Positions 5,016 through 24,155 of a stretch of DNA of 64,000 nt are shown here, piece by piece. The first letter of the stretch is position 1; every line of letters starts with the position of its first letter. The DNA lies in NCBI RefSeq assembly GCF_000145255.1, contig NC_014394.1, positions 744,001 through 808,000 of the forward strand, in the 5' to 3' direction. The position numbers and the translations under genes were made by a program. Below the pieces are notes generated by a model. The model worked only from the letters and a program-made list of their open reading frames with translations. It did no database searches and was not told where the DNA came from. Source of the stretch: Gallionella capsiferriformans ES-2. Its GTDB lineage: Bacteria; Pseudomonadota; Gammaproteobacteria; Burkholderiales; Gallionellaceae.

Positions 5016-5055
5016 ACGCGCAACTGGTGCAAATAGTGCGTTTTATGCCCTAAAA

Positions 5056-5171
5056 CCGCCACCAAAAATGCTCCAAACCCACCACGTATAATACTTCAAT
5101 AGCGCCATCTGTAATGCTCGCAAACCAGCCACTCATAACACCCAAATCCGCCACCCTATAAAATAATAAAG
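5056..5171 (-). repeat. Left-end array of five transposase-site-like repeats
   Basis: Five tandem units of about 23 bp, starting near 5056, 5078, 5101, 5125 and 5148. Each opens with a variant of CCGCCACC or GCGCCATC and contains an AT-rich segment such as ATGCTCCAAA or ATACTTCAAT. They mirror the array at the right end. Multiple terminal repeats bound by the transposase are typical of IS21 and Tn7-like elements. Confidence 0.75.
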
Positions 5172-5199
5172 CCGACGCCTCTTTCGGGTAGCGTCGGCT
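5160..5199 (-). terminator. Rho-independent terminator of the transposition operon
   Basis: On the minus strand, downstream of istB, AGCCGACGC and GCGTCGGCT form a perfect 9-bp stem around a 12-base loop, followed by TTATTATTTT. It overlaps the innermost end repeat. Confidence 0.75.
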
Positions 5200-5227
5200 C
5201 ATCGCTGAATTTGGAAATATTGCCAGT

Positions 5228-5962
5228 TTACTTACGTAGTTTCCGCATCGACTCACCTTGCAACGGAATACGCAATGATCCGCTGATTATTCGATCCAAG
5301 ATTGCATCGGCAACGGTAGGATTTCCGCCACTTAGGTAGCCATACCAATTTTCCACGGGAATCTGGCTGGTGACGATGGTTGAACGCCCTCCCACACGAC
5401 TATCAATGACCTCTAGTAAGTCACTCCGCCCTTGAATAGTTAGCGCTGCCATTCCGAAATCATCTAGTATCAACAGATCGCATTTCGCCAGTTGTGCCAA
5501 GCGCTTTCTGAAACTGCCATCCGCATGGCTGATTTGCAACTCCTCTAGGAGAAGTGGAAGCCGCTGGAATAATACCGTTTTCCCCTGCCGACATGCCTGA
5601 TTGCCAAAAGCACACGCCAGCCATGTTTTTCCCGAACCTGTCAGGCCGGTCATGATCAGATTCACACCTTTCTCAATCCACTGGCAAGTCACCAGCGAAG
5701 CCATTTGGCTCTTGTCCAATCCGCGATTGTGTTGGTAGTCAATATCCTCGACACAGGAATTGAATTTGAGCTTGGCCGTTTTCAGCAGGCGCTTTAGGCG
5801 CTGGTTTTCACGGTAAGTGGTTTCCTGATCAATCAGAATTCCGAAGCGTTCCTCAAAACTGAGGCTCATGGCCGCCACACTCGATAACTGATCATCAAAG
5901 CCCTTGGCCATGCCAATTAGGTGTAGATTTTGAAGTTTGGTAATAGTCTGCTGAATAAGCAT
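5228..5962 (-). CDS. istB: IstB-like AAA+ ATPase, transposition helper
   Basis: A DnaA/DnaC-related AAA+ ATPase that loads target DNA and activates the IstA transposase. The 244-residue length is normal for the family. Walker A is GLTGSGKTWLA near residue 105; Walker B is LLILDDFG near 168; SQIPVENWY near 202 contains the sensor region. AAGGAGAA lies six bases before the ATG at 5962. It begins 23 bases after the istA stop in the same operon, and the terminator at 5160-5199 ends the transcript. Confidence 0.93.
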   Translation of the reverse strand: MLIQQTITKLQNLHLIGMAKGFDDQLSSVAAMSLSFEERFGILIDQETTYRENQRLKRLLKTAKLKFNSCVEDIDYQHNRGLDKSQMASLVTCQWIEKGVNLIMTGLTGSGKTWLACAFGNQACRQGKTVLFQRLPLLLEELQISHADGSFRKRLAQLAKCDLLILDDFGMAALTIQGRSDLLEVIDSRVGGRSTIVTSQIPVENWYGYLSGGNPTVADAILDRIISGSLRIPLQGESMRKLRK

Positions 5963-5985
5963 TTCGTTCTCCTTAGTGGAATGGG

Positions 5986-7506
5986 TCAGTGGTAATATTG
6001 GGGGCCACGAATGTTGTCGTGGTCGAAATTCGCTTCCTGTACAGCTGGTGCAGAAATGGGCTGCTGATCAAGATTCTTCTCCAGAATGCTACGCACACGA
6101 CTCACATGATTCGCTCCGATGGCAAGTGCCCGAGCACACGCCGACTCAAGTCGATCTTCGCCGAACGCATTGCCCATGGACTTCAGCGCACTGTCTGCAC
6201 GCATGGATTGTTCCCGGCGAGCTAACTTGGATAGAGCCAACTTCAAAAAACTATGCGTATTGGGGCCGATACCCAGTGCCCAGCCCAACGCTTTGTCTTC
6301 ATTCCAGTCCTGCTGATAGCGATGGGAAGAAGGCATGTGCTCCTTGTCAGTTGTTTTTCCTGGCCCGTTAGCGCGTGGATGGGTCGCAATGCGGCGGCCA
6401 CCATGAAGGATTTCGACGGTGGTGGCTGTCACACGGACATCAACGTTCTTTCGAATTAGCGTGTAGGGCACGCTGTATAGGTGTCGGTCGCCCAGATCAA
6501 TGTGATAGTCGTGATCGACACAAAATCGGCGGAATTCTGCTAATGTATATTTTTCGAGTGCCAAGGGGCGGAGAGCGGGCTGGTCGATAGCCTCAAAAAC
6601 GGAGCGACGGCAGCCAGGTAGCTTCTTGAATGGGCGGTTATTAACATCAACGAGAAGTTCTCGAATGGCATCGTTCAGATCAGCTAAATTAGTAAAGATG
6701 CGTTTGCGCAACCGGAAGAGAATCCATCGTTCAACGATCAGAACTCCATTCTCCGCATGAGCCTTATCCTTCGGTTTGTATGGCCTGGCGGGGATAATCA
6801 TGGTTCCGTAATGATCAGCCATGTCTTGGTAGCTGGAATTAATGGTGGGGTCGGTTTTGCTGGCCCGAATGACGGCAGACTTTAAGTTATCACACACAAC
6901 AACGGCGGGCACCCCACCAAAGTGCTCGAACATGCGCGCATGGGAATCAATCCAATTGGGTAGACTCTGGCTCCAGACTGCATCGGCATAAATGTAGCAT
7001 GACGCCCCCAATACGCCGACGAAGATTTGGGCCTCTTGGATTTCACCTGTAGCAATATCGGTTATTTTCATCGTGGGACCAACGTAGTCCACAAAAACCT
7101 TGTCGCCTGCCACATGGATTTGGCGCATAGAACGCTTCAGCGTTTTTTCGAATTCCCGGTGACGCTGGCAAAAGTAACTGTAAGATAGTCCAGTTGGATA
7201 CTCGGCTAGATATTCCTCATGAAATCCTTGGAGCGTCGCGCCTTTTTGCTTCAATTCCTGATGGATTTTCATCCAGTCGGGTTCAGATTTGCGCAAAGTA
7301 TTATCCTTGGGCAGAGATGGGAACAGGCGTCGCTCCAACTCGGCATCATCCATATCTGATGGCAGAGGCCAAGATAGACCCGCTACCGCTGAACGTGTCA
7401 AGTAATCCGAAACGGAATCGCGGGAAATTCCTATACTGCTGGCAATGGCGCGTTTGCTCTGCTCCATCTCAAAGGTGAGTCGCAGCACCTGCCTTATCTT
7501 CCTCAT
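5986..7506 (-). CDS. istA: IstA-like DDE transposase (rve fold)
   Basis: Cuts and joins the transposon ends. The first 60 residues form a helix-turn-helix (KRAIASSIGISRDSVSDYL). The catalytic rve domain has its first Asp in FVDYVGP near 140, second Asp in VVVCDNLKSA near 203 and Glu in KAHAENGVL near 240, so the DDE triad is intact. A Mu-type C-terminal barrel and a basic tail follow, for about 506 residues in all. I chose ATG 7506, preceded by AGGAG, over the upstream frame start at 7527. The gene lies between the nuclease-like gene (56 bases upstream) and istB. Its own promoter and palindromic operator are at 7529-7557. Confidence 0.92.
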   Translation of the reverse strand: MRKIRQVLRLTFEMEQSKRAIASSIGISRDSVSDYLTRSAVAGLSWPLPSDMDDAELERRLFPSLPKDNTLRKSEPDWMKIHQELKQKGATLQGFHEEYLAEYPTGLSYSYFCQRHREFEKTLKRSMRQIHVAGDKVFVDYVGPTMKITDIATGEIQEAQIFVGVLGASCYIYADAVWSQSLPNWIDSHARMFEHFGGVPAVVVCDNLKSAVIRASKTDPTINSSYQDMADHYGTMIIPARPYKPKDKAHAENGVLIVERWILFRLRKRIFTNLADLNDAIRELLVDVNNRPFKKLPGCRRSVFEAIDQPALRPLALEKYTLAEFRRFCVDHDYHIDLGDRHLYSVPYTLIRKNVDVRVTATTVEILHGGRRIATHPRANGPGKTTDKEHMPSSHRYQQDWNEDKALGWALGIGPNTHSFLKLALSKLARREQSMRADSALKSMGNAFGEDRLESACARALAIGANHVSRVRSILEKNLDQQPISAPAVQEANFDHDNIRGPQYYH

Positions 7507-7528
7507 ATTTAATCTCCTGTTACACATG

Positions 7529-7557
7529 AATATAGCCGGCTATATTATGATTCTCAA
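7529..7557 (-). promoter_or_regulatory. istA promoter with overlapping palindromic operator
   Basis: On the minus strand TTGAGA (7552-7557), a 17-base spacer and TATATT (7529-7534) form a promoter about 23 bases from the istA start. A perfect 18-bp palindrome, AATATAGCCGGCTATATT (7529-7546), covers the -10 and the spacer end. The same layout recurs at 8563-8591. Confidence 0.65.
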
Positions 7558-7562
7558 AAAAT

Positions 7563-8537
7563 TCAGCGAGCGAAGACCTTGACCAACAAGCCTTTGGCCA
7601 ATTCACCCGTGTAGTGTCCGGATTGTTGGCTGCGTTGTGCAGGACGTATGACCTGGATGCTGTTGCCATCGGCGATCATCAAACCAACATGTTCCGGTAT
7701 GCACTCCATGCTCAGTTCCGATGTGCGTCCATGGGTTGCAACCCAAAGGAAGTCGCAAAAAGGGGTTTGTCGCTCAAGCAATTCGTAAGTGGATCTACTA
7801 ATAAGGTAACTCCCTTTAATCTCAATCCCATGGAATGTAAGAGGGGCTGACTTATGGGCGCGCACTGCGGCCACTGCGTCAAACGTAAATCTCTGGCGAG
7901 CATTGAGAGGTGGTTCTGGGCTAACGTGCATGAACAATTCGTAACGGTCTGGACGTTCAATGCCAGTCCATTCAGATCCGTTAGCGGATAACGCTGTAAA
8001 GACCTGCGCCTCCAGCATGGACTCAGACTGAAAGGAATCCGCTGGATTGATTTTTGGAACTGCTACACCCTTTCCACGCGCTGTCCTTCCTTCTAGTACA
8101 GGACGATAGGCAAGCCAGGTTTCTCGCAGTTCCGCACGAGTTACGGTGCTAGCCACGACTTGTTGTGCGATTTTCCGAAAGACATCATCGGGCATAACAC
8201 GAGCCAGTTTTGAGAGAATTTCGATATTCTCGGGACTCACCTTGTCGGATAATTCATCAAGGGAAGGAATGGATACACCACTAGCAATTAAAGTCTTGCG
8301 TAACTCCTGGTAATACCTTGCTGCCGTGAGGTAACGCCAAAGGCTGGCTTCTTTCAAATTAAGGGAAGGACTTAATGCCTTGAGCCATTCCGTAAAAGAG
8401 CCGGAAGATTTTTGCCAGTAGCCGCTATGATCTACCTGATCCAGCAGCAGACCAATTTGCGCCCATGAGCGAGCCTCGCCCTTTGCCATGGAGACGAGAT
8501 CTGTGTTGATTTGTTGTGTAATCTGGCTGGTTGTCAT
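7563..8537 (-). CDS. PD-(D/E)XK nuclease-like protein of the transposition module (TnsA-like role inferred)
   Basis: About 324 residues. The N-terminal part (about 15-85) looks like a helical DNA-binding domain of the DUF3102 type: WAQIGLLLDQVDHSGYW, then SLWRYLTAARYY. The C-terminal 140 residues resemble the MmcB/VRR-type PD-(D/E)XK fold: E in EAQVF near 176, D in RFTFDAV near 220, E and K in GIEIKGS near 239-241, then FCDFLWVAT and EHVGLMIADG. It is the first gene of an operon-like row with istA and istB and has a matching operator. The frame opens at GTG 8564, but that codon overlaps the -10 box, so ATG 8537 is the better start. In Tn7 the TnsA nuclease of this superfamily cuts the 5' strands. 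A like role here is inference; a DNA-repair or regulatory role is possible. Confidence 0.7.
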   Translation of the reverse strand: MTTSQITQQINTDLVSMAKGEARSWAQIGLLLDQVDHSGYWQKSSGSFTEWLKALSPSLNLKEASLWRYLTAARYYQELRKTLIASGVSIPSLDELSDKVSPENIEILSKLARVMPDDVFRKIAQQVVASTVTRAELRETWLAYRPVLEGRTARGKGVAVPKINPADSFQSESMLEAQVFTALSANGSEWTGIERPDRYELFMHVSPEPPLNARQRFTFDAVAAVRAHKSAPLTFHGIEIKGSYLISRSTYELLERQTPFCDFLWVATHGRTSELSMECIPEHVGLMIADGNSIQVIRPAQRSQQSGHYTGELAKGLLVKVFAR

Positions 8538-8562
8538 GATCGTTGATTGTAAATTAGCAATC

Positions 8563-8591
8563 ACTATAGCCAGCTAAAGCATGTAGGTCAA
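8563..8591 (-). promoter_or_regulatory. Promoter of the nuclease-like gene with operator half-sites
   Basis: On the minus strand TTGACC (8586-8591), a 17-base spacer and TATAGT (8563-8568). The spacer ends in TAGCTGGC directly before the -10, matching TAGCCGGCTATA at the istA promoter. The transcript would begin between the in-frame GTG 8564 and ATG 8537, which favours ATG 8537. Confidence 0.6.
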
Positions 8592-8866
8592 GCATTCTCA
8601 GATGGATATGGAATGGCTATGCGCGAAGCCCGCTCCGCAGCCGCCACATACTTCGGTGGATGGAATGAAATATTCGGATAGCAATGCCTTACATTACAAA
8701 ACGTTCTAATTCACAAGTGCTGATTGGCTGGTATCAGATAGCAAGCGTTCATAGAATTAGAAATTAATCTATCGGAATAATGTGCCATTACCCGCCCTTG
8801 GCATGAAGTTTCTATTTTGTATGTTTTTATCTTGACATTAGCTCCTGCATCTGAAAAACTCAGCGC
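8592..8866. other. Divergent intergenic region before the metal-resistance cluster
   Basis: Separates the transposition operon (-) from the cargo (+). It contains TTGACATTAGC (8832-8842) about 25 bases before the first cargo gene, a possible -35 with no clear -10. A single GCCGCCACATACTTC (8638-8652) resembles one unit of the transposon end repeats but stands alone. Confidence 0.4.
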
Positions 8867-9238
8867 ATGTCCAGTTTCGTCCGAAAATTTATCGCTGTGC
8901 TTTTAGCCATCTGGCTACCACTGTTTAGCGGTGGAGCGCTGGCGGCTAGCGTATCCATGCAAATACAGAATGGCTCGTGCCATGAAGCTGGCATGGATAC
9001 GATGCAAGATATGGATGAACATCAACACGCGATGTCGCATGATCAGTCACCCAACAACGATCAGGACGGAACATCCTGCACCGCCTGTGCTGTCTGCCAT
9101 CTGGCATGCAGCGGATATTTGGGTGTGCAGGCAATCAAGAACCTAGAAGTTCTGCAATCTGCCATTTCGGTCACGCCCTATTTATTCTCGTATCATTCCA
9201 TCACCTCCACACCTGTCGTTCCTCCACCTCTCGCTTAG
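8867..9238 (+). CDS. Secreted Cys/His/Met-rich protein, putative copper binding
   Basis: A 123-residue protein. Residues 1-27 are a signal peptide (basic start, hydrophobic LLAIWLPLF, cleavage near GALA-AS). The mature part has many His and Met residues (DEHQHAMSHDQS near 50-60) followed by a Cys cluster, CTACAVCHLAC near 72-82. Such features suit periplasmic metal binding. It resembles small DUF2946-type proteins found beside copper efflux operons, though I cannot confirm the family. It leads the cargo cluster, about 215 bases ahead of cusC. There is no strong ribosome binding site at this ATG. Confidence 0.7.
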   Translation: MSSFVRKFIAVLLAIWLPLFSGGALAASVSMQIQNGSCHEAGMDTMQDMDEHQHAMSHDQSPNNDQDGTSCTACAVCHLACSGYLGVQAIKNLEVLQSAISVTPYLFSYHSITSTPVVPPPLA

Positions 9239-9454
9239 TGCTCTACAGGACGACTCCGTCTACCAGTTTCGTAAATTGATCTGACTCTAGCTCGTCCTTA
9301 GTCTTTAAGCGTCTGCGTTCGCCCTTGTTTTACCGGTTTGACGCACGCACACATTTTGTTAATACCAATGCTCGTGGTTTGCTGATCATTCTCACTGGTG
9401 CAATAACAAAGACGGATTTGCAGCGTAACTCGTTACGAGTCCGTGAGGAATAAT

Positions 9455-10708
9455 ATGAAAAATCTGATTTCAATGCTGTTTGGCTGCGCCTCAAGCTTTG
9501 CGGCAATAGCTGCAGAGCCACCTTTAGGTGCAGACTTACAGGGTTTATTGAGTTATGCGCGCGAACACAATCCGGCTCTGACTGCGATGCGATATGAGGC
9601 CGAGGCCGCCTCGCTGCGCGTGCAACCCGCCGGTGCATTGCCTGATCCGGTGCTGCGTACCGAGTTGATGGACATTACTAATCAAGGCACGAATAAACCG
9701 CCGAGCTTGTTGCCGTCACAGGTAGGCGGTACGCGTTATTTGCTGATGCAAAGCGTTCCGTGGTTCGGCAAGCTCGATTTACAGAGAGGAATAGCCGAAG
9801 CACAAGTTGCCGGGGCGCGCGGACAAACTGCCATTGCATGGGTGGATTTGAGCGGGAAAATAAAAACTGCCTATGCGATGCATTACTACCTGTCGGACAG
9901 TATCAGACTGACCCGTGCAACATTGGATTTAACTAAGCGCCTGGAAAAAATCGCGCAAACTCGCTATGCAAACGGGCTGGGTACACAGCAGGAAGTGATA
10001 CGCGCGCAAATCGAACAAACTGATTTGCAAACTATGCTGATTGAATTGGACAATGAACAGCATCATGTGCATGCAAGCCTGAACAATCTACTGTCGCGTC
10101 CTGCCAATGCAGATCTGGCGGAGCCGCTGCAATTGCGTCCAATTCCCGCCTCAGCACGACTTACGTCGCTGGAAGATAGGCTGCGTGCGCACAATCCGCA
10201 GCTGCAAGTGGCTGATGCGAGCGTCAACGAAGCCCAGCAGAGCCGCGACCTGACCTATAAAAACCGTTATCCCGGATTTACTCTTGGCGTCGCCCCAACA
10301 CAGAGCGGCAGTGTCGTGAAGAGCTGGGATCTGATGGTTGAATTCAATCTTCCGTTGCAACAGGAATCGCGCCGTTCTCAGGAGCATGAAGCGGAAGCGA
10401 AGATGGCCGCATCCGCTGCGCGTCAGGCATCTCTGCTCAATCAAGTGTTGTCGGAATTATCGGAAAGTGTATCCGGTCTTGAGACCGCGCAGCGTACCGA
10501 GACACTCATCGCTACGCGTTTTCTACCTCAAGCTGAGCTGAGTTTTCAATCTGCGCTGAGTGGGTATGAGACTGGCAAACTTGATTTTGCCACACTGCTC
10601 GATGCGCAGCGTCAAATACTGAAAGCGCGCCAACAACGCATCAAAGCGCAGTATGACGCGCAATTGCGCCTAGCTGAAATTGAACGCCTGATTGGAGAAG
10701 AGTTATGA
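9455..10708 (+). CDS. cusC: CusC/CzcC-type outer-membrane efflux protein
   Basis: Outer-membrane channel of the tripartite Cu/Ag efflux system (TolC/OEP family, about 417 residues). A signal peptide ends near AAIAAEPP. Two OEP repeats follow: the first has LRVQPAGALPDP and VPWFGKLDL, the second has SVNEAQQSRDLTYKNRYPG. Coiled-coil segments are rich in Gln and Glu. GTGAGG precedes ATG 9455 at the right distance, so I prefer it over GTG 9443. The stop overlaps the start of the adaptor gene by four bases, showing coupling to CusB and CusA. Confidence 0.88.
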   Translation: MKNLISMLFGCASSFAAIAAEPPLGADLQGLLSYAREHNPALTAMRYEAEAASLRVQPAGALPDPVLRTELMDITNQGTNKPPSLLPSQVGGTRYLLMQSVPWFGKLDLQRGIAEAQVAGARGQTAIAWVDLSGKIKTAYAMHYYLSDSIRLTRATLDLTKRLEKIAQTRYANGLGTQQEVIRAQIEQTDLQTMLIELDNEQHHVHASLNNLLSRPANADLAEPLQLRPIPASARLTSLEDRLRAHNPQLQVADASVNEAQQSRDLTYKNRYPGFTLGVAPTQSGSVVKSWDLMVEFNLPLQQESRRSQEHEAEAKMAASAARQASLLNQVLSELSESVSGLETAQRTETLIATRFLPQAELSFQSALSGYETGKLDFATLLDAQRQILKARQQRIKAQYDAQLRLAEIERLIGEEL

Positions 10709-12288
10709 AAAAAATCATAGTATTAGTGTCAATTATTGTCGTCGTTTCGATTATTTCGGCTGGCAGCTATAGCTTGGGAAAGCGCTTCTCCGGGGTGACA
10801 GCGCCGGTTACAGCCGATGCCGTAAAGGAGGAACGCAAGATTCTTTATTACCGCAATCCGATGGGTTTGCCGGATACCTCGCCGGTACCCAAAAAAGATG
10901 CGATGGGGATGGATTACGTACCGGTGTATGACGGTGATGCTGTTCAGGAGGAGGGGGGTGTCAATATTAGTGTTGAAAAAGTGCAAAAACTCGGCGTAAA
11001 AAGCGAAGCAGCCACGCTACGCGGTTTAAACAAAACCATTCATGCCACCGGACGCATTGAAATCGATGAACGCCGTACCTATACCATCGCACCGAAATTC
11101 GAGGGCTGGGTAGAACACCTTTATGTGAACAGCACCGGAGAGACTGTTAACCGTGGACAGGCGTTGTTTGATGTGTACAGCCCCGAACTGGTGTCGGCGC
11201 AGCGCGAATACGCGATTGCCGCACAAGGCGAAGCAAAACTTGAGAATGCAGATGAAGAAACTAAAGCGGGCATGAAGCAACTGGCTGATGCCAGTCTGGC
11301 ACGCCTGAAAAACTGGGATATTACGCCGGGAGAAATAAAGCAATTAACCACTGGAAAATCCAGACGCAGCCTGACCTATTACGCGCCGGTATCGGGCATC
11401 GTACTGGAAAAGAAGGCCGTACAGGGCATGCGCTTCATGCCGGGAGAGACGTTGTATCAGATCGCCGACTTGTCTCAAGTGTGGGTGCTGGCAGACATCA
11501 ACGAGCAGGATATCGGGCAGGTAACGACAGGTAGTGACGCACAGGTCAGTATCGGTGCATACCCGGATAAGTTGTTCAAGGGAAAAGTCGCCTTCGTCTA
11601 TCCGACTTTGAATTCCGCGACGCGCACCGTGCAAGTACGCGTGGAGATTGCCAATCCACAAGGTTTGCTTAAGCCATCCATGTTTGCCAACGTGACGTTG
11701 CCCGTAGGCAGTAATACTCGGATGCTGACGGTGCCAACTTCGGCGGTGATAGACAGTGGCATGCGTCAGGTGGTGCTGGTGCAATTAGCACAAGGCCGCT
11801 TTGCGCCGCGCACTGTCAAATTGGGTAGCCGCAGCAACGATTATGTCGAGATACTGGATGGCCTTGTAGAGGGGGAGCAGGTAGTTACTTCGGCCTTGTT
11901 CCTGATCGATGCGGAAAGTAACCTCAAAGCGGCGTTGGGTGGTCTTGGTGGTCATGCAGCACATGGCGGGGCTACACCCGTCGCAGAAGATCACTCAGCG
12001 CATGCAACTCCTGCAGCGCCAAAGAAAAATCCTGCAACAATAGGTCATCAGGCAGCAGGCATCCTGAACGGCATCAATGAGGATGGTTCTGTGAGCATCA
12101 CCCATGAGCCGATCAAATCACTGGGCTGGCCCGGCATGACCATGGACTTCGCTTTGACTAATTCCTCATTGGCCGCCGGTATCAAACCAGGTAGCAAGAT
12201 CACCTTCGAACTCGTCGAGCGAAAACCCGATGAATGGGTGATTACCAAGTTGCAAGCGCTTGCGCCGCAGCAACACGAGGGACATTAA
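10705..12288 (+). CDS. cusB: CusB-type RND adaptor with N-terminal HMBD and C-terminal CusF-like domain
   Basis: Periplasmic adaptor that links inner pump and outer channel (527 residues). After a membrane anchor (residues 4-22) comes a heavy-metal-binding domain, YYRNPMG to GMDYVPVY, near 48-75. The hairpin, lipoyl and barrel domains follow (VNRGQALFDVYSPEL near 147; YAPVSGIVLEK near 226). A His-rich linker near 420-435 (HAAHGG, DHSAHA) leads to a fused CusF-like copper chaperone with WPGMTMDF near 475. In E. coli CusF is a separate protein; here it is attached. It overlaps cusC by four bases, and cusA begins just after it. Confidence 0.9.
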   Translation: MKKIIVLVSIIVVVSIISAGSYSLGKRFSGVTAPVTADAVKEERKILYYRNPMGLPDTSPVPKKDAMGMDYVPVYDGDAVQEEGGVNISVEKVQKLGVKSEAATLRGLNKTIHATGRIEIDERRTYTIAPKFEGWVEHLYVNSTGETVNRGQALFDVYSPELVSAQREYAIAAQGEAKLENADEETKAGMKQLADASLARLKNWDITPGEIKQLTTGKSRRSLTYYAPVSGIVLEKKAVQGMRFMPGETLYQIADLSQVWVLADINEQDIGQVTTGSDAQVSIGAYPDKLFKGKVAFVYPTLNSATRTVQVRVEIANPQGLLKPSMFANVTLPVGSNTRMLTVPTSAVIDSGMRQVVLVQLAQGRFAPRTVKLGSRSNDYVEILDGLVEGEQVVTSALFLIDAESNLKAALGGLGGHAAHGGATPVAEDHSAHATPAAPKKNPATIGHQAAGILNGINEDGSVSITHEPIKSLGWPGMTMDFALTNSSLAAGIKPGSKITFELVERKPDEWVITKLQALAPQQHEGH

Positions 12289-12289
12289 G

Positions 12290-15200
12290 ATGCTAAATTC
12301 CATCATCGATTGGTCTGCTCGAAACCGTTTTATGGTTATTCTGGCAACCTTGTTTGTTACCTTGGCGGGCATTTATGCGGTACTCAAAACGCCACTGGAT
12401 GCCCTGCCTGATTTATCCGATGTGCAGGTAATTGTTTACACTGAGTATTCCGGACAAGCTCCGCAGGTGGTTGAGGATCAGGTCACCTATCCGCTCACCA
12501 CCGCGATGCTGGCGGTGCCGAAATCCAAGGTGGTGCGCGGCTTCTCGTTTTTTGGCGCATCGTTTGTATATGTGATTTTCGAGGATGGCACCGACATCTA
12601 TTGGGCGCGCTCCCGGGTGTTGGAATATCTCAACAGCATCGCGGGACGGCTGCCTAAAAATGTCGCGCCGCAACTGGGGCCGGATGCAACCGGGGTGGGC
12701 TGGGTGTATCAGTACGCGGTGTTGAGCGAGAAGCATAATCTCGCTCAGCTGCGCACCATGCAAGACTGGTATTTACGCTACCAGCTTACCAAGGCACACG
12801 GTGTTGCGGAAGTCGCCTCCATCGGCGGTTTTGTACAGCAATATCAGGTGACTGTTGATCCCATTAAACTGCGCGCTTATGGTATTCCTTTGAGCAAAGT
12901 GTCACAGATTATCCGTGACTCGAACCGCGATGTTGGCGGGCGCGTGGTGGAGATGGCCGAGACCGAGTATATGGTGCGCGGGCGTGGCTATCTGCGCGGC
13001 AAGAGTGACATCGAGAATCTGGTCGTTAAAGCCGAGCGAGGCACCCCTGTGCTGCTGCGCGACATTGCCCGTGTCGAACTGGGGCCGGATGAACGGCGCG
13101 GACTGACTGAGTTAAACGGCGAGGGTGAAGTCGTATCAGGCATCGTCATGGCGCGCTATGGGCAAAACGCATTAGAAGTCATCCACAACATCAAGGAAAA
13201 GATCGCTGAAATCGCTCCCGGTTTGCCGGAAGGCGTAAAGATTGTTTCAGTATATGACCGTTCCGATTTGATCCATCGCGCCATTGAAACATTAAAAGGC
13301 ACGCTGCTGGAAGAAAGTTTAATTGTCGCACTGGTGTGTATGGTGTTCTTGATGCATGCACGCAGTGCGTTGGTCGCCATCGTGATGCTGCCTGTTGGTG
13401 TTTTAATTTCTTTCATTGCGATGCGCGTGCTGGGGCTGAACTCCAACATCATGAGTTTGGGCGGGATTGCCATTGCCATCGGCGCGATGGTAGATGCGGC
13501 TATCGTGATGATCGAGAATGCACACAAACATCTGGAGCGGGTAAAAGAAGGTGAATCGCGCACAGAAGCGATGATTGCGGCGTGCAAGGAAGTCGGACCG
13601 GCACTGTTCTTTTCGCTGCTCATCATCACCGTATCGTTCTTGCCAGTATTTACGCTGGAATCGCAAGAAGGACGAATGTTTTCTCCGCTGGCTTTCACCA
13701 AAACCTTTTCCATGGCGGGCGCAGCGTTGCTCTCGCTCACACTGGTGCCGGTGCTGATGTTGCTATTCATACGCGGAAACATCAAACCAGAGGCGCAAAA
13801 TCCGCTAAACCGTTGGTTAATCACGGGCTATCGTCCGCTTATTGCTGCGGTGCTGAAACACAAGAAAATGACCATCGTCGTTGCTGCACTGGTTTTGATA
13901 TTGTCAGCCTATCCCGCTACCCGATTGGGTAGCGAGTTCATGCCAACGCTCAATGAGGGCACGTTGTTATTTATGCCCGCCTCCTTGCCCGGCATGTCGG
14001 TGACCAAGGCGGCGGAATTGTTGCAGACGCAGAACAAGATTATCAAGAGCTTTCCTGAAGTGATGTCCGTATATGGCAAAGCTGGGCGCGCGCAGTCTGC
14101 AACCGATCCTGCACCATTGGAGATGTTTGAGACGGTCATTAACTTAAAGCCGCAGGAGGAGTGGCGACCTGGAATGACGATCGACAAACTGATCGGCGAG
14201 ATGAACAAAGCATTGCAATTTCCCGGTGTGGCAAATTCGTGGACGATGCCGATCAAGGCGCGTCTCGATATGCTGGCAACCGGTATTCGCACGCCGATAG
14301 GCATCAAGGTGTTTGGTAAAAATCTGGATGAAATGGAGCGGCTCGCCAAGGAAATTGAAGCTGTGGTTAGGAAGGTTCCGGGTACCACCAGTGCTTTTGC
14401 CGAACGATTAACGGGCGGTTTCTACCTTGATATTGAACCTGATCGCGTTGCCCTGGCACGTTACGGGATTGGCGTCGGTGATTTACAGGAAGTCATTTCT
14501 ACCGCACTGGGTGGTGAGATGGTCACGACGACGGTAGAGGGGCGGGAACGTTTTGGCGTGACAGTACGTTACCCGCGCGAATTGCGTAGCGATCCAGAAC
14601 AGATTGCCCACGAAGTGCTGGTGCCAACCATGGAGGGTGCTCAAATTCCGCTTGGACAGCTTGCCAAGGTCAGCCTGAGTAAAGGTGCGCCTGCTATCCG
14701 TACCGAGAATGCGCTGCTTTCCGCTTATATTTTTGTGGATATACGTGATCGTGACATTGGCTCTTACGTGGCCGATGCGCGCAAAGCAGTTGCAGCACAG
14801 GTGAAATTTCCGCCTGGCTACTATGCAACCTGGAGCGGGCAGTTCGAATACATGGAACGTGCTGCCGCGAAAATGAAGATCGTCATTCCCATCACGTTGC
14901 TGATCATCTTCCTGTTGCTGTATCTCAATTTTAAACGCGTCACCGAATCTTTGGTGGTGATGCTGTCCGTACCGTTTGCGCTGGTCGGCGGTGTGTGGCT
15001 ACTGTGGTTGCTCGATTACAACTTGAGCGTCGCCGTGGCGGTTGGCTTTATCGCACTGGCGGGTGTGGCAGCGGAGACGGGGGTGGTGATGTTGATCTAC
15101 CTGGAGCAGGCGTGGCAGGACGTTCAGTCACGTTGCTCTGATGAAGGCCGTCAACCGAACGCCGTCGATCTGCACACAGCCATCATGCACGGCGCTGTGG

Positions 15201-15400
15201 AACGGGTACGTCCCAAGATGATGACCGTGGTAGCGATCATGGCAGGGCTGTTGCCGATTTTGTGGAGCAGCGGCACGGGTTCGGAAGTGATGCGCCGCAT
15301 CGCAGCGCCTATGGTGGGAGGCATGATTTCCTCAGCGATTTTGACGCTGCTGGTGATTCCGGTGATCTATGCGCTGATCAAGAACAGAGAAATCAGATAA
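12290..15400 (+). CDS. cusA: CusA-type heavy-metal RND efflux pump
   Basis: Proton-driven inner-membrane transporter for Cu(I)/Ag(I), 1,036 residues, the full family length. ATG 12290 has GAGGGAC upstream; the longer frame from 12260 overlaps cusB. Two halves of six helices each flank large periplasmic loops. TM4 has AIGAMVDAAIVMIENAHK near 400, the signature of the copper/silver (HME4) group rather than the DFG motif of zinc/cobalt CzcA pumps. Periplasmic loops are Met-rich, as in CusA. It forms an operon with cusC and cusB. The following gene is a broken CDF transporter. Confidence 0.93.
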   Translation: MLNSIIDWSARNRFMVILATLFVTLAGIYAVLKTPLDALPDLSDVQVIVYTEYSGQAPQVVEDQVTYPLTTAMLAVPKSKVVRGFSFFGASFVYVIFEDGTDIYWARSRVLEYLNSIAGRLPKNVAPQLGPDATGVGWVYQYAVLSEKHNLAQLRTMQDWYLRYQLTKAHGVAEVASIGGFVQQYQVTVDPIKLRAYGIPLSKVSQIIRDSNRDVGGRVVEMAETEYMVRGRGYLRGKSDIENLVVKAERGTPVLLRDIARVELGPDERRGLTELNGEGEVVSGIVMARYGQNALEVIHNIKEKIAEIAPGLPEGVKIVSVYDRSDLIHRAIETLKGTLLEESLIVALVCMVFLMHARSALVAIVMLPVGVLISFIAMRVLGLNSNIMSLGGIAIAIGAMVDAAIVMIENAHKHLERVKEGESRTEAMIAACKEVGPALFFSLLIITVSFLPVFTLESQEGRMFSPLAFTKTFSMAGAALLSLTLVPVLMLLFIRGNIKPEAQNPLNRWLITGYRPLIAAVLKHKKMTIVVAALVLILSAYPATRLGSEFMPTLNEGTLLFMPASLPGMSVTKAAELLQTQNKIIKSFPEVMSVYGKAGRAQSATDPAPLEMFETVINLKPQEEWRPGMTIDKLIGEMNKALQFPGVANSWTMPIKARLDMLATGIRTPIGIKVFGKNLDEMERLAKEIEAVVRKVPGTTSAFAERLTGGFYLDIEPDRVALARYGIGVGDLQEVISTALGGEMVTTTVEGRERFGVTVRYPRELRSDPEQIAHEVLVPTMEGAQIPLGQLAKVSLSKGAPAIRTENALLSAYIFVDIRDRDIGSYVADARKAVAAQVKFPPGYYATWSGQFEYMERAAAKMKIVIPITLLIIFLLLYLNFKRVTESLVVMLSVPFALVGGVWLLWLLDYNLSVAVAVGFIALAGVAAETGVVMLIYLEQAWQDVQSRCSDEGRQPNAVDLHTAIMHGAVERVRPKMMTVVAIMAGLLPILWSSGTGSEVMRRIAAPMVGGMISSAILTLLVIPVIYALIKNREIR

Positions 15401-15418
15401 TTCAATAGGTGAAAAGTA

Positions 15419-16070
15419 ATGGCTGATTGTTGCAATGACAAAGCATGCGAGATCGACGCACTTCGATATCGCCAAAGCTCGACACTCAAGATAGTGCTGG
15501 GTATCAATGCCGTCATGTTCGTCGTAGAACTCACGGCAGGACTGCTCGGCAACTCGATTTCGCTGGTGGCGGATTCGCTGGATATGCTGGGCGATAGCAA
15601 TGGTGTACGGCTTCAGCCTCTACGTGGTCGCACGCAGCGCCACCATGAAAGCCAGAGCGGCACTGCTCAAAGGCATCATCATGGCGGCCTTTGGCTTCTT
15701 CGTCCTCGGGCAGGTGATCTACCGGATCGCGTTCCCGCAACTCCCTGTGTATGAGGCTATCGGGGCAATCGGCTTGCTGGCACTTGCCGCGAATGGCACA
15801 TGTTTCTTTCTGCTCTGGCGACATCGTGCGGATGACATCAATATGAGTTCGGTTTGGTTGTGCTCGCGCAACGACATCATTGCGAATATCTCGGTATTGT
15901 TTGCTGCCGTGGGCGTGTGGCTCACCCATTCCGGCTGGCCTGACATCCTTGTTGGTCTGGCACTTGCCGCACTCTTTTTACGCTCGGCACTGCATGTATT
16001 GCGCGAGTCGATCCGGGCACTGCGTGCCATTCGCACCAATAGCGCGATACAGCCTGATAATTTCAATTAA
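15419..16070 (+). pseudogene. Cation diffusion facilitator (CDF) transporter with a +1 frameshift
   Basis: The first frame starts at ATG 15419 with a Cys-rich N-terminus (ADCCNDKACE) and runs through two helices to DSLDMLGD. There an extra A (GAT-A-GCAATGG, about 15597) shifts the frame; the remaining four helices continue in another frame (MVYGFSLYVV onward) to 16070. Joined, they make a normal six-helix CDF protein of about 217 residues. Either the gene is inactivated or the base is a sequencing error. A CDF exporter of divalent metals would complement Cus efflux. Confidence 0.75.
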
Positions 16071-16083
16071 TGAAAGAAACACG

Positions 16084-16521
16084 ATGAGAATTTTTAAACT
16101 ACTGGCAATCACTCTAGCACTCACCTTGGCAGGTATAGGTGCAGCGCAAGCCGCAACGGCAGTGACTCTTTACAAGAGTCCGACGTGCGGCTGCTGCGAG
16201 AAATACGTGGACTATCTGCGCGAGAACGATTTTACGGTGAAGGCGGTGAATGAGTCCGACATGAGTGCCGTCAAGAAGCGTTATGGCATGTCACATGCCG
16301 CTAGTTGCCATACGGCGTTGGTGAATGGCTATGTCATTGAGGGGCATGTTCCCGTTAATGCCATCCGCAAACTGCTCAATGAGAAGCCCGCGATTGTCGG
16401 CATCAGTGTGCCCGGAATGAAGATGAATTCACCGGGGATGGGAGAGACAAAGAAGGGAACGCTGACCGTTTACGCCGTCCCGAAAGATGGGAAAGAACCG
16501 TATGTGTTCTCAGTCGAATAA
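16084..16521 (+). CDS. DUF411 periplasmic metal-binding protein
   Basis: A 145-residue protein with a signal peptide (residues 1-22, ending near AAQAA). The mature part has the DUF411 hallmark LYKSPTCGCCEKY near 29-41, a CxCC-type site, then SCHTALV near 78 and VPVNAIRKLL near 95. DUF411 proteins occur with copper and silver efflux systems and are thought to bind the metal in the periplasm. ATG 16084 follows AAAGAAACACG. It sits 13 bases after the CDF gene, so it is likely in the same transcript. Confidence 0.85.
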   Translation: MRIFKLLAITLALTLAGIGAAQAATAVTLYKSPTCGCCEKYVDYLRENDFTVKAVNESDMSAVKKRYGMSHAASCHTALVNGYVIEGHVPVNAIRKLLNEKPAIVGISVPGMKMNSPGMGETKKGTLTVYAVPKDGKEPYVFSVE

Positions 16522-16558
16522 CTAATCTATTTGCACTCATAAATTTAAAAGGGCAGTA

Positions 16559-17029
16559 ATGATTGAAATTATTCCAAATTGGCATCCGGTGTTGGTGCAT
16601 TTCCCAATTGCCTTTGCCACGGCTGCGGTAACCTTTATTGCCGTAGGTACGATATTCAAAAATCGCTCATGGGCGATGCAGTGCCTGACGATGGGTCGCT
16701 GGATGTTGTGGGCAGCGGCCATTTTTTCCTGTATCGCAGCGGTGTTCGGCTGGCTAGCTTATAACAGTGTCGAACATGACGAAGCGGGACATCTGGCCAT
16801 GACGATCCATTGTAACTGGGCACTTGCCGCTCTCGGTGCGCTGGCTTTGCTTGCCGCTTGGGATGTGTGGCGCGGTCGTTCTTTTACGGCACCCTCGCCA
16901 GGTTTTCTGGTTTTGCTGATCGCGGCGTGGTTGCTAGTGGTCAGCGCTGCCTGGCATGGTGGCGAGGTGGTCTATCGGCATGGCTTGGGTGTGATGTCCT
17001 TGCCTGCGCATGAGGAGCATACCCACTAA
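16559..17029 (+). CDS. DUF2231 integral membrane protein
   Basis: A 156-residue inner-membrane protein with four hydrophobic segments (about 14-32, 48-66, 86-104, 118-137). The start HPVLVHFPIAFA near 8-19 is the DUF2231 signature. His residues line the helix ends (HDEAGHLAMTIH near 72-83; HGGEVVYRHG near 139), and the tail is EEHTH, suggesting metal or heme contact. The biochemical role of the family is unknown; it is common in copper-resistance islands. Confidence 0.8.
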   Translation: MIEIIPNWHPVLVHFPIAFATAAVTFIAVGTIFKNRSWAMQCLTMGRWMLWAAAIFSCIAAVFGWLAYNSVEHDEAGHLAMTIHCNWALAALGALALLAAWDVWRGRSFTAPSPGFLVLLIAAWLLVVSAAWHGGEVVYRHGLGVMSLPAHEEHTH

Positions 17030-17110
17030 TTATTGAAAGGAGGTGTCGATGCGCGTTTAAATAATTTTTGTTACAGCATATTTTTTAACCACCACCATTC
17101 GGAGAATAAA

Positions 17111-17389
17111 ATGAAACTTAAATCTACATTGCTTGCTGCCACTTTGGTTATATTTTCTGTTTTCAATGTAACGGCATTTGCCGTTGATGTTCACGACACC
17201 AACACCGGAACGGAAAAAACTGAGACAGTTAAGACTGAAAAGGCAGAGGCAAAAAAGCCTGTGAAAAGACACAATCATATGGAAGAGAAAACCGGCATGC
17301 CTGTCGGAAGCACTGCGAGCGGTAAGAGTCATCGTGAATCCATGCCTAAAGACATGCCTATGCACGATCACTTGAAAGAGAAGCACTAA
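17111..17389 (+). CDS. Small periplasmic Lys/His/Met-rich protein
   Basis: A 92-residue protein; ATG 17111 follows GGAGAATAAA. Residues 1-24 are a signal peptide (LLAATLVIFSVFNVTAFA). The mature part is low complexity: a Thr/Glu/Lys stretch (EKTETVKTEKAEAKKP) and a His/Met-rich tail (RHNHMEEK, MPKDMPMHDHLKEKH). Metal binding is the natural guess given the copper cluster, but the low complexity prevents a family assignment. A longer frame starting at 17033 lacks a binding site. Confidence 0.7.
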   Translation: MKLKSTLLAATLVIFSVFNVTAFAVDVHDTNTGTEKTETVKTEKAEAKKPVKRHNHMEEKTGMPVGSTASGKSHRESMPKDMPMHDHLKEKH

Positions 17390-17539
17390 ATTACGTGTTT
17401 CAGTGTGCGCCAGGATGAACAATATTTTGGCGTACATTTTTTCCCCTTTTGAATTGATATGTCGGCTTTTTTGACAAAGCCAGCAAGTCAACTATCAATC
17501 AGATTCAAATAAATTTGAAATGAGGCATTGCAGAAAATC

Positions 17540-18808
17540 ATGTTTGCAGCCATTCCCAATAATTCCAGAGAACTCCATCGTTATCTGCTTACAAGATTTT
17601 TTGTATCAGGCATATTGATCAGCGTACTTGTCGGCACACTTGTTTTTTATCTGGAAAACTGGAGAGTCGAAAAGATGGCCTTTGAACAAGCTGCGGCAAG
17701 TGCCAGACATTTCGATTCCCCTGAAATGCGGAAACTGGTTGCGGCGGACTCTCAAATGAGTCTGCTTGAACTTGCCAAACTATTGGAGAACTCCAGCTTT
17801 GCAGGCATCCGTATTTTCGATTCATCCGGAAAATCATTGATGGAAGCATGGGGGATGGAGGCCGGCAGTCTTCGAAGTACTGTGCAAGCGCATCAGCATG
17901 TTTTTCCAAAGCCAGGCAAGCAACACTATAACTGGCTAACGAATGAGGATGAAGATTTCGTGCAAGTGCTCATACCACTGCTTGATTCGATGCGTGTGAC
18001 GGAAGTGTATTTTGAAGGCGTCTATCGTCTTGATGTTGGAACGCGATATGCAAGAAAACATCAGGCGCGCAATGCAACACTGACTTCTTTCGTTGCGGTG
18101 ATTTTGATTTTAATCTTGCTCTACCCCGTTTTACTTGGATTGACGCGGCGGTCCGAGTCCCTGTCTCAATCGCTTTTGGATTCGAACCTTGAATTATTGC
18201 AATCATTGGGTAGCGCTATAGCAAAAAGAGATGCCGATACCGATACGCATAATTACCGGGTGACGCTGTATTCGGTCAGGCTTGCCGAAACAATGAACCT
18301 GAATCGAGATAGCATCGAATCGCTGATTGTTGGTGCTTTTCTGCACGATGTCGGAAAAATTGGAGTTCCGGATCAGATACTACTGAAACCGGGGCGACTG
18401 ACTGCGGATGAGTTTGAGATTATGAAACGCCATGTTGTATTTGGCGGGGAGATTATTCAGGATTCAACTTGGTTGAAGCGTGCCCGGGACGTGGTGCTTT
18501 TTCACCATGAGAAATTTGATGGCAGCGGCTACCCACACGGCATTTATGGCAAGGATATTCCTCTTTCGGCACGATTGTTTGCTGTGGTTGATGTGTTCGA
18601 TGCTTTGATGTCAAAACGGCCCTATAAGGAGTCCTTATTGATTGATGACGCATTAAAAATTTTGCAGGATGGAGCCGGGGGACATTTTGATCCTGAAGTA
18701 GTCGGTATCTTCATAACTGTCGCCGCCACGCTATACGGCGAGATTGGACAATCCGATCGAGGATATTTGCAGAAAACACTAAAAGTGATAATAAAAAAAT
18801 ATTTCTAG
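17540..18808 (+). CDS. Membrane HD-GYP domain protein, putative cyclic-di-GMP phosphodiesterase
   Basis: Residues 20-40 form one helix and about 185-202 a second, enclosing a periplasmic sensor region of about 140 residues. The C-terminal HD-GYP domain is complete: FLHDVGKIGVPD near 275, [11 protein letters not shown], then FHHEKFDGSGYP near 330 and VFDALMSKRPYK. Members hydrolyse c-di-GMP. It lies inside the metal cluster on the same strand, so copper may be the signal (inference). The start is uncertain: the frame opens at TTG 17528, and ATG 17540 is 14 bases from TGAGG. Confidence 0.85.
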   Translation: MFAAIPNNSRELHRYLLTRFFVSGILISVLVGTLVFYLENWRVEKMAFEQAAASARHFDSPEMRKLVAADSQMSLLELAKLLENSSFAGIRIFDSSGKSLMEAWGMEAGSLRSTVQAHQHVFPKPGKQHYNWLTNEDEDFVQVLIPLLDSMRVTEVYFEGVYRLDVGTRYARKHQARNATLTSFVAVILILILLYPVLLGLTRRSESLSQSLLDSNLELLQSLGSAIAKRDADTDTHNYRVTLYSVRLAETMNLNRDSIESLIVGAFLHDVGKIGVPDQILLKPGRLTADEFEIMKRHVVFGGEIIQDSTWLKRARDVVLFHHEKFDGSGYPHGIYGKDIPLSARLFAVVDVFDALMSKRPYKESLLIDDALKILQDGAGGHFDPEVVGIFITVAATLYGEIGQSDRGYLQKTLKVIIKKYF

Positions 18809-19161
18809 TGGATTTCAATAACGATAGGGAAATTTATGGAAAACTCGCATGGGAATAAATGCAGCTGTCAAATGTTAAGCCTAGCTGTTACGGGAAGGCC
18901 CCAGTGCGTGCCGCTATGATTATTGCAAAAATGTCCTGCAGCGTCGTTGGACAATGACCTGTAATCATGGGCAATCACCTTCGACAGAAAAGCCACCTGT
19001 TTATGAACCTGTTGTGATGCATGAGGATGGTATGTTGAATTTATTAAAGAAGACATTAGGGTAAGCACCGAATGAGCGGATGAGTCGGGTGACATGTCAG
19101 TAATGCATGGACACACTGGAATTTAATCATTAGACTGAATTCGACTGAATGTGAGGTCAGC
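18809..19161. other. Gap with possible small coding remnants
   Basis: A 27-codon frame at 18836-18919 (+) begins MENSHGNKCSC after a GGGAA site. A second frame (ATG 18953) encodes about 36 residues ending in MLNLLKKTLG at about 19063. Neither is complete as a known protein. They could be pieces of one short Cys-containing gene with a frameshift, or noise. Confidence 0.3.
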
Positions 19162-19629
19162 ATGACGCAGCAACAATCTGAGACGGCTCTATCCATAAGA
19201 CCCATCCAATTTGGAGCGGGTGCATTTGTGTTGCTGCTCGCCATTAATTTTGCTGTGGTCAGCCTGATTTCCGGGGTGGATTTCACACTCGAACAGTTTA
19301 CAAAGTTCTGGTATTTCTTCGTGTCCCTTGCGTTGGGATTTGGCATTCAGGTCGGTCTCTACACCTACCTCAAGCAACTTGTCGGGCAACATGGCGCATC
19401 AGGCAAGGTGGTAGCGGTGTCCGGCACGACCTCCACTGCGGCAATGGTTTCCTGTTGCGCACATTATCTGGTCAATATCTTGCCTGTTCTGGGTGTCACC
19501 GGCTTTCTCACCATCGTTGCAGAATATCAGATTGAGTTGTTCTGGGCAGGTCTTGCCTTTAACGTGGCCGGTATTCTCTATATCGTACCTAAAGTTATCA
19601 ACGCTACGCGGGAGCATAAAAAATGCTGA
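19162..19629 (+). CDS. Four-helix inner-membrane protein of metal-resistance clusters
   Basis: A 155-residue protein with four hydrophobic helices (about 18-40, 48-66, 82-110, 122-144). MVSCCAHYLVNILP near 95-108 puts two Cys and one His in or at the third helix, and the C-terminus ends KKC, a possible metal pathway. I do not recognise a named family. Its stop overlaps the next start by seven bases (19623-19629), so it is coupled to the periplasmic protein. Both precede the copper ATPase. Confidence 0.7.
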   Translation: MTQQQSETALSIRPIQFGAGAFVLLLAINFAVVSLISGVDFTLEQFTKFWYFFVSLALGFGIQVGLYTYLKQLVGQHGASGKVVAVSGTTSTAAMVSCCAHYLVNILPVLGVTGFLTIVAEYQIELFWAGLAFNVAGILYIVPKVINATREHKKC

Positions 19630-20039
19630 AAAAATATTTGAGCAGTTTTGCATTTGCAACGTTGATTGCCTTTGTGCATAACGGCCTTATTACGACATGC
19701 GATGCGGCGGAGATTGCGCCGCAAATAAGCAACGAGCGGGGCATCAAGGTAACCACTGCGCTGCAAGCTATTCCTGCGGATGCGAAAACATGGACTTTTG
19801 AGGTGACGCTGGAAACCCATACGCAGGCCTTGAGCGATGATTTGACCAAGTCTGCAACGCTGATTGTTGATGGCAAGCAATACCTGCCGCTGGCCTGGGA
19901 CGGCGCGCCGCCCGGAGGCCATCACCGCAAGGGGCTGTTGCGCTTCAAGGCGGTTGCTCCTCAGCCACGATCAATGGAACTGCAAATACGTCTGGCAGGC
20001 GACAAGTCTCCCAGAAGCTTCAAATGGTTGATCAAATGA
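19623..20039 (+). CDS. Periplasmic protein coupled to the membrane protein upstream
   Basis: A 138-residue protein with a signal peptide (FAFATLIAFV, cleavage near CDAAE around 28). The mature part is beta-rich, with TWTFEVTLETHT near 56 and AWDGAPPGGHHRKG near 91-104, a His-His pair in a Gly/Pro loop. It looks like an immunoglobulin-like fold. It overlaps the previous gene and lies 40 bases before the P-type ATPase. The family is not recognised; a periplasmic metal or redox partner is plausible from context only. Confidence 0.7.
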   Translation: MLKKYLSSFAFATLIAFVHNGLITTCDAAEIAPQISNERGIKVTTALQAIPADAKTWTFEVTLETHTQALSDDLTKSATLIVDGKQYLPLAWDGAPPGGHHRKGLLRFKAVAPQPRSMELQIRLAGDKSPRSFKWLIK

Positions 20040-20078
20040 TTCACTGAGGCAATTTTCACCACCGGAAAGGGGCATGCA

Positions 20079-22469: not shown

Positions 22470-22513
22470 CAAGGTTTTTTTGGACGTAAACTTTTTCCTG
22501 AAAGGAGAACGTG

Positions 22514-22756
22514 ATGAAACAGGACGAATCTACTAAGCAAGATGCACACTGTGTACCAAGGGGATACAACTGGATTCTGGTGGTATTTCTGGCGATTGCT
22601 GCATTTTTTCTGTTTACCGAACACCGCGCCCACCTGCTGGGTGCATTGCCATTTCTGTTCTTGCTGGCCTGCCCGCTGATGCACTTGTTCATGCATCATG
22701 GCCATAACAACCATGACCAGCATAATCATGGTTCATCCGAAGGAGAGTCAAAATGA
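22514..22756 (+). CDS. DUF2933 small membrane protein
   Basis: An 80-residue protein; ATG 22514 follows AAAGGAGAACGTG. A short soluble start is followed by two hydrophobic helices (ILVVFLAIAAFFLF near 21; HLLGALPFLFLLACPLMHLF near 40) and a His-rich tail (MHHGHNNHDQHNHG). This is the layout of DUF2933 proteins, often next to copper ATPases. The tail probably binds metal. The stop overlaps the next start (ATGA). Confidence 0.8.
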   Translation: MKQDESTKQDAHCVPRGYNWILVVFLAIAAFFLFTEHRAHLLGALPFLFLLACPLMHLFMHHGHNNHDQHNHGSSEGESK

Positions 22757-23397
22757 ATACGGACGCTCCCGATTATGGCCTGTGGTCGCTGGTCATCATC
22801 AACTCGCTGGTGTTCATCATATTTGCATTCAGCTTCACCAAGCCAGAAACGCCGCGCGACTGGCGCTCGTTCAGCGCGTTCTCGGCCTTCATCGTGGCGC
22901 TGTTCGCCGAAATGTATGGTTTTCCACTGACGATTTATCTGTTTGCCGGCTGGTTGCAAACCCGTTATCCCGGTGTCGGTATTTCCTCCCATAATAGCGG
23001 TCACCTCTGGCATACCCTGCTCGGCTGGAGGGGCGATCCGCACACCGATCCGTTACACATGCTCAGTTTTGTGTTCATCGGCGGCGGATTCATCCTGCTT
23101 GCATCTGCATGGAAAATTCTCTATCAGGCGCAGCGCAATCATCAACTGGCGATTACCGGGCCTTATGCCAAAATCCGCCATCCCCAGTACGATGCTTTCG
23201 TACTCATCATGTTTGGTTTCTTGTTGCAATGGCCAACGCTGCTGACCCTGTTGATGTTCCCTGTGCTGGTGTGGATGTATGTGCGTCTGGCGCATACCGA
23301 GGAGCGAGATGCAGAAGTCCGTTTTGGCGCGCAGTGGCGGGAATATGCGGCTCATACATCAAGGTTCATCCCGCAACGAACACGTTCAAAATCATAG
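22753..23397 (+). CDS. Isoprenylcysteine-methyltransferase-like (ICMT/PEMT fold) membrane protein
   Basis: A 214-residue membrane protein with about five helices. The C-terminal half has the family signature: GPYAKIRHPQY near 137-147, which is the SAM-binding entry, and EERDAEVRFGAQWREYA near 183-200. The reaction in bacteria is unknown; these methyltransferase-like proteins recur in metal-resistance clusters. It overlaps DUF2933 by four bases and is followed ten bases later by a YHS protein. Confidence 0.82.
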   Translation: MNTDAPDYGLWSLVIINSLVFIIFAFSFTKPETPRDWRSFSAFSAFIVALFAEMYGFPLTIYLFAGWLQTRYPGVGISSHNSGHLWHTLLGWRGDPHTDPLHMLSFVFIGGGFILLASAWKILYQAQRNHQLAITGPYAKIRHPQYDAFVLIMFGFLLQWPTLLTLLMFPVLVWMYVRLAHTEERDAEVRFGAQWREYAAHTSRFIPQRTRSKS

Positions 23398-23407
23398 GAG
23401 GTGCGTC

Positions 23408-23884: not shown

Positions 23885-24037
23885 TTGCCTAAAGCAGCGG
23901 CCACGAACCTCAGGCTGACGGACTCATTCAGATGCGCCACAACAGATAGAAACCAAGCAAGATAAGCAGGCTACATTCACACAACATCGAAATAACTTCT
24001 GCTATCTAATCAGACGTTCAAAAATATCTAAACAGCA

Positions 24038-24155
24038 GGTGGCGCTATTACACCATTTTCGGTGGCGGAATTGCGGGCATTATGGGTGGAGTATTTGAAG
24101 TATTTCAGGTGGCGGGTTTGGAGCATTATAGGTGGCGGTTTTCACCAGAATACGC
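24038..24155 (+). repeat. Right-end array of five transposase-site-like repeats
   Basis: Five tandem units near 24038, 24061, 24084, 24108 and 24131, most opening with GGTGGCGG. They mirror the left-end array: GGTTTGGAGCATTAT here corresponds to ATGCTCCAAAC there. The outer unit is followed by CCAGTTGCG, the inverted match of the left tip. Confidence 0.75.

Follow-up and report, generated by a model that had tools for sequence, protein, structure and literature searches.

What does a gene for a nuclease-like protein do at the head of a transposition operon? The question is raised by gene X in a 64,000-nucleotide stretch of the Gallionella capsiferriformans ES-2 genome (contig NC_014394.1, positions 744,001 to 808,000; hereafter the window), in which X stands upstream of istA and istB in a large IS21-type transposon. 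The sequence-only reading of this DNA proposed that X is a TnsA-like nuclease that provides the element with a cut-and-paste route. The comparative analysis described here favors a different role: X is quite probably the element's own transcriptional repressor and an autorepressor of the transposition operon.

7563..8537, minus strand: gene X, 324 amino acids, with an N-terminal ParB/KorB-like helical domain (residues ~1-150) and a C-terminal MmcB-like PD-(D/E)XK-type domain (residues ~170-324)

The predicted fold of the N-terminal helical domain resembles the Noc/Spo0J/KorB group of DNA-binding proteins. Pfam matches to the ParB family, including the ParB N-terminal CTPase domain, were absent from X at E≤5 and from ten relatives at E≤0.1. 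The C-terminal domain showed the MmcB fold in structural comparisons (SPO1766, 3dnx), and the profile search yielded a weak MmcB-like match (PF06319) of 20.4 bits, which is under the curated cut-off of 22; the same profile was matched at E≤0.1 in 3/10 X relatives. Thus, the fold comparison and the weak sequence match bear out the earlier assignment of a PD-(D/E)XK-type, MmcB-like C-terminal domain. X differs from MmcB-like proteins in its additional N-terminal domain and in the ExK lysine, which is kept in few X relatives. All ten rows of alignment A7 share the N-terminal-domain residues W51, W67, R68, and Y69, and mean column conservation is 0.53 at positions 20-150 vs. 0.40 at positions 170-300. 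The better-conserved part of X is the presumed DNA-binding part.

The positions of short palindromes around X point to transcriptional control. A palindromic site is located both at the predicted promoter of X itself and at the transposase promoter in the window and in most transposition-linked loci, but not in locus L047. The features in the window are as follows.

8563..8591, minus strand: predicted X promoter, TTGACC-N17-TATAGT, from the promoter scan
8565..8578, minus strand: operator-like site O1 (TTTAGCTGGCTATA), overlapping the X -10 box
7529..7557, minus strand: predicted istA promoter, TTGAGA-N17-TATATT, read by eye at a position unscored by the script
7529..7546: operator-like site O2, the perfect palindrome AATATAGCCGGCTATATT, within the promoter-like stretch before istA

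The N-terminal helical domain of X, as a dimer, would bind the palindrome (T/C)TAGCC-RGCTA(G/A), with one site over the -10 region of the X promoter and the second in the istA promoter. Because the sites are situated at both promoters, X would hold down both its own expression and that of istAB, which encode the transposase pair. We infer that X binds these sites, that it represses transcription from them and that catalysis has been lost. On this model, an element settled in its host would seldom transpose, and entry into a cell that lacks X would raise the rate. The MmcB-like domain would no longer need catalysis and may serve dimerisation, DNA contact or sensing; its nuclease fold may be a decaying relic that has taken on a structural or sensing function. 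As elsewhere in the IS21 family, IstA and IstB presumably would carry out excision and insertion. The proposed operator arrangement has a parallel in KorA/KorB circuits in which, according to PMC2680271, TTTAGC-type palindromes are operators, one overlapping a -10 box. In contrast to the KorB and KorA repressors of IncP-1 plasmids, of which KorB has a ParB-type DNA-binding domain, X has no ParB-family Pfam match and bears a C-terminal MmcB-like domain. Element-borne control of transposition genes also is exerted by the Xre-type regulators of I-F3 CRISPR-associated transposons, which belong to a different protein family from X.

The genome to which the window belongs contains 10 occurrences of the word TAGCYRGCTA: six at three X loci (two each), and four inside open reading frames (ORFs) of ≥120 amino acids. 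Among 11 X loci, a motif approximating TCTAGCCRGCTAGA was found with ≤2 mismatches upstream of X in seven and downstream in six, the motif having been read from the same loci in which the matches then were counted. These matches were reached rarely or never by 1000 shuffles per region, and in 0.1-4.5% of draws of random windows from the same loci, a figure inflated by windows that overlap the sites. A motif-free test showed a 12-mer common to both flanks of X at 11 or 12 of 12 positions in 7/8 transposition-linked loci and in L062, where X precedes a DUF3987 gene and adjoins no transposition gene; 0-2 of 60 shuffles reached this level, and none of the seven remaining X loci did. The division into linked and other loci was post hoc, and in some of the seven X is likewise followed by a gene on the same strand. 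The linked locus that failed was L047, which by eye has variant sites only. The promoter scan reported best-scoring promoters only, which are predictions: upstream of X the site was at the -10 position in the window, L005, L061, L067, and L062, met the -35 position in L049 and was not at -10 in L047 or L048. In the Tn7-like gene set L005, an almost identical word occupies the two positions corresponding to those in the window.

Conversely, 16 of 16 upstream regions of istA genes without X had no operator-like site (best, 5-6 mismatches). This control set includes two copies from a single genome (L024 and L030) and a partial IstA match for which the start was extrapolated (L028); L021 and L023 offer <300 base pairs (bp) of upstream sequence so that the absence of X there is weak. 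The site counts excluded partial or weak matches (G064, G733, G812, G565, G520, and G990) and the fragments L090 and L091; L050 is almost identical to L049. For L048 and L062, the X starts used (9394 and 3295, respectively) are positioned 3-9 bases before a start codon; the strict motif test took 3313 as the L062 start and failed there, whereas the 12-mer test used 3295. In four plasmid loci from Enterococcus and Flammeovirga (L009, L010, L015, and L016) a different, long, perfect or near-perfect palindrome, e.g., TTTACTATAACGTATTATAGTAAA, is found just before X, and these relatives differ at R68/Y69, which fits a change of both the putative reader and its site.

The placement of the sites also bears on whether X could be a DNA-binding protein that assists the transposition reaction itself, in target choice, immunity or end synapsis, with expression control secondary. 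The linkage of X to transposition genes of three kinds, described below, and the likeness of its N-terminal domain to site-anchored DNA-binding proteins of the Noc/Spo0J/KorB type would suit such a factor. However, the sites are at promoters, and the core word in this genome is confined to the three X loci and the four in-ORF places, and is absent from the element ends. This role is considered unlikely.

The putative catalytic residues next were compared. In alignment A7, E176 is kept in 6/10, D220 in 8/10, E239 in 5/10, and K241 in 1/10 sequences, and the window protein retains all four. The expectation that these residues are conserved beside istA held for the acidic positions, as E176, D220, and E239 are present in all four istA-linked X proteins, but failed for the lysine, as the residue at position 241 varies among the four (K, R, A, and I); it is I in L005. 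Among the four plasmid relatives that are included in alignment A1, the lysine is lost in three, the Flammeovirga protein retains IEIK, and D220 is kept in none as aligned.

The retained acidic residues, the PD-(D/E)XK-type fold and the gene order X-istA-istB are what would be expected of a TnsA-like nuclease, which would cut the second strand at each end of the element and thereby allow cut-and-paste movement. TnsA identity nevertheless was rejected for X because the lysine is R, A or I in the three other istA-linked proteins, both Tn7-type loci with X already encode a protein with TnsA domains, X heads operons with a tyrosine recombinase, IS21 relatives without X also have TGCG-type ends, and there is no profile similarity between the X family and the TnsA of L005 (hhalign probability, 0.4%). 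The TnsA Pfam domains PF08722 and PF08721 gave no match in X at E≤5; the same library detects both in the L005 TnsA and PF08722 in L088. TnsA was not among the 50 structural matches listed for X, an absence that was not used as a test. The domain order in TnsA is the reverse of that in X, in which the DNA-binding-like domain is first. Overall, the nuclease role and the cut-and-paste route proposed previously are most improbable.

X is rare: matches were detected in 3/369 genomes of the class, 1/150 of the family, 10/398 of the phylum (by profile), 5/74 of another family, and 4/349 of the order, in five sets that overlap, four of which include the window's own genome, and with several partial matches. 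Searches with X gave no match in viral contigs or, at E≤0.01, in phages. A search of genome contigs with alignment A3 produced 40 stretches that fit a pattern, none of which was confirmed; a motif scan of genome contigs gave 12 stretches, four of which encode X relatives. The linkage with istA-istB noted originally is real and recurrent, as X precedes istA in three other genomes with istB visible in two. The identities of X, IstA, and IstB to the window proteins are 49, 64, and 79% in L061, and 48, 61, and 73% in L067, respectively. In L047, X (36%) is directly before istA (41%) on a contig that stops before any istB. A TIR-domain gene follows istB immediately in L061 (521-1309).

The homologues are not tied to istAB, an outcome that had been named beforehand as counting against the TnsA-like reading. 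At ~1.33 Mb in the window's own genome (L005, 617-8116; G000:C1), X precedes a complete Tn7-like tnsA-tnsB-tnsC-tnsD set, and in L088 it precedes tnsA-tnsB-tnsC; thus, in both Tn7-type loci that were found X stands before a gene with TnsA domains. Another transposase-like ORF, IS256-like by eye, is located just upstream of the Tn7-linked X (L005, 8783-10069). In L048 (10376-16041) and L049 (9227-14443), X heads a three-gene operon in which the last gene has a tyrosine-recombinase (Phage_integrase) domain and the first two have no Pfam match at E≤0.01; these loci possibly represent an undescribed tyrosine-recombinase element. An X relative in L013 (9701-17378) is beside the DISARM genes drmA and drmB (PADLOC), and X in L051 and L089 adjoins no transposition gene. 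Enterococcus plasmids account for 236 of the 240 plasmid records with an X relative; neighborhoods were inspected in four of the ~240 records, three from Enterococcus and one from Flammeovirga. AbiG and Fic genes occur near plasmid relatives, and Cas genes near that of Flammeovirga. In E. wangshanyuanii, istA-istB is ~2 kb downstream of the X relative, but the locus was not counted as linked because it has no shared site. As X is found before tnsABC, before operons with a tyrosine recombinase, beside DISARM genes, and on Enterococcus plasmids, homologues occur freely without istAB.

The proximity of X relatives to DISARM, AbiG and Fic, and Cas genes, together with the retention of all four residues in the window copy, could indicate an active nuclease that is directed against operator-like sites on competing elements, or a defense gene carried as cargo. 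This alternative is very unlikely: the residues vary across the X family, site-like words are present at the promoter of X itself, and in L061 X is positioned between an end-like sequence and istA and therefore belongs to the transposition module.

A broader form of the repressor model is that X and its paired operators constitute a portable control cassette that makes use of a retired nuclease fold, has been passed among operons of IS21-type DDE transposases, Tn7-type DDE transposases and tyrosine recombinases, and confers a shared cross-element transposition immunity. This is possible but doubtful. Because the operators are nearly identical, different elements in one cell, such as the two IS21-type copies and the Tn7-like set, may silence each other and may be released together in a host without X. 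The 16-row X tree is poorly resolved (2/13 inner branches starred, eight open) with IS21- and Tn7-linked X proteins intermixed without strong support, and therefore neither the direction nor the number of exchanges between element types is claimed.

In the open-access literature searched, nothing was found that mentions a gene like X ahead of istA or of tnsA. What appears to be new is an IS21-type transposon that carries its own regulator; no description was found of this combination of domains, and the regulator also would serve other movers. If correct, one regulator family and one operator type control at least three unrelated recombination machineries, which would bear on the question of how large transposons remain silent before they spread, and offers a simple test for cross-regulation between different transposons in one cell. 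The locus also warns that a PD-(D/E)XK gene beside a transposase is not always TnsA, and contributes an IS21-type element whose metal-efflux cargo amounts to ~15 kb. The features of this element are as follows.

5037..24156: whole mobile element, 19,120 bp, ends TGCG...CGCA, delimited by a second genomic copy with identical ends and other flanks
5032..5036: target-site duplication AATAG, left copy, from the sequence
24157..24161: target-site duplication AATAG, right copy, from the sequence
5037..5170, plus strand: left end, TGCGTTTTATG and five repeat matches spaced by ~23 bp, of which the inner are degenerate
24040..24156, minus strand: right end, TGCGTATTCTG and four repeat matches spaced by ~23 bp, of which the inner are degenerate
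5228..5962, minus strand: istB
5986..7506, minus strand: istA, start probably at codon 8 of the 7527 ORF
8867..23884, plus strand: cargo, comprising an outer-membrane efflux protein, CusB/HlyD with CusF, an AcrB-type pump, cation efflux, an HD-domain protein, a heavy-metal P-type ATPase, a YHS protein, and others

The second copy is at 2912378-2931495 of the same genome (3.16 Mb, one contig), with the same end bases and different flanking DNA; the copies differ at four positions over 19,120 bp. The target duplication is 5 bp (AATAG) at the window copy, and 6 bp (CCCCCG), inside a C-run, at the other. In the IS21 family this duplication ranges from 4 to 8 bp. A pattern built from the end sequences of this element, L061, and L067 matched only the four ends of the two copies in the genome. 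X, istA, and istB form one end of the element, all on the same strand; thus, the earlier reader had seen one end of a large IS21-type transposon, and the multi-site ends recognized then belong to this cargo-bearing element. IstA and IstB exceed the curated NCBIfam cut-offs for the IS21 family (NF033546, 282 bits, cut-off 160; NF038214, 240.2 bits, cut-off 200), and the TG..CA ends, several internal repeats and short target duplication of the family are present.

Like ISIde2, ISSpu5 and other IS21-family elements, the window element has proteins of the IstA and IstB families, TGCG/CGCA ends that bear several repeats, and a short target duplication, but it adds the upstream X with its paired operator-like sites and ~15 kb of cargo inside the ends. 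For IS21, PMC9330008 describes a promoter that forms at the junction of tandem copies, whereas in the window element istAB appear to have their own controlled promoter. IS21 is presented in PMC10293859 as a relative of TnsB/TnsC with no reported target selector; TniQ/TnsD was absent among X, IstA, IstB, and the 10 cargo ORFs scanned, 9 of which had a match. Tn7 and Tn7-like elements (TnsA/B/C/D) similarly combine a DDE transposase and an AAA+ partner with large cargo and multi-site ends, and X-family genes precede tnsABC in two loci, but X is not TnsA.

The start of istA probably is codon 8 (7506), because CTCCT (AGGAG on the coding strand) at 7514-7518 is just ahead of this codon and because identity with the closest plasmid IstA (Methylomonas, L031; 57.5%) begins at M8. 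A small helix-turn-helix gene that is not X is upstream of the Methylomonas istA (L031, 14423-14749). Within the cargo, the cation-efflux reading frame is broken into two overlapping ORFs at 15419-16070.
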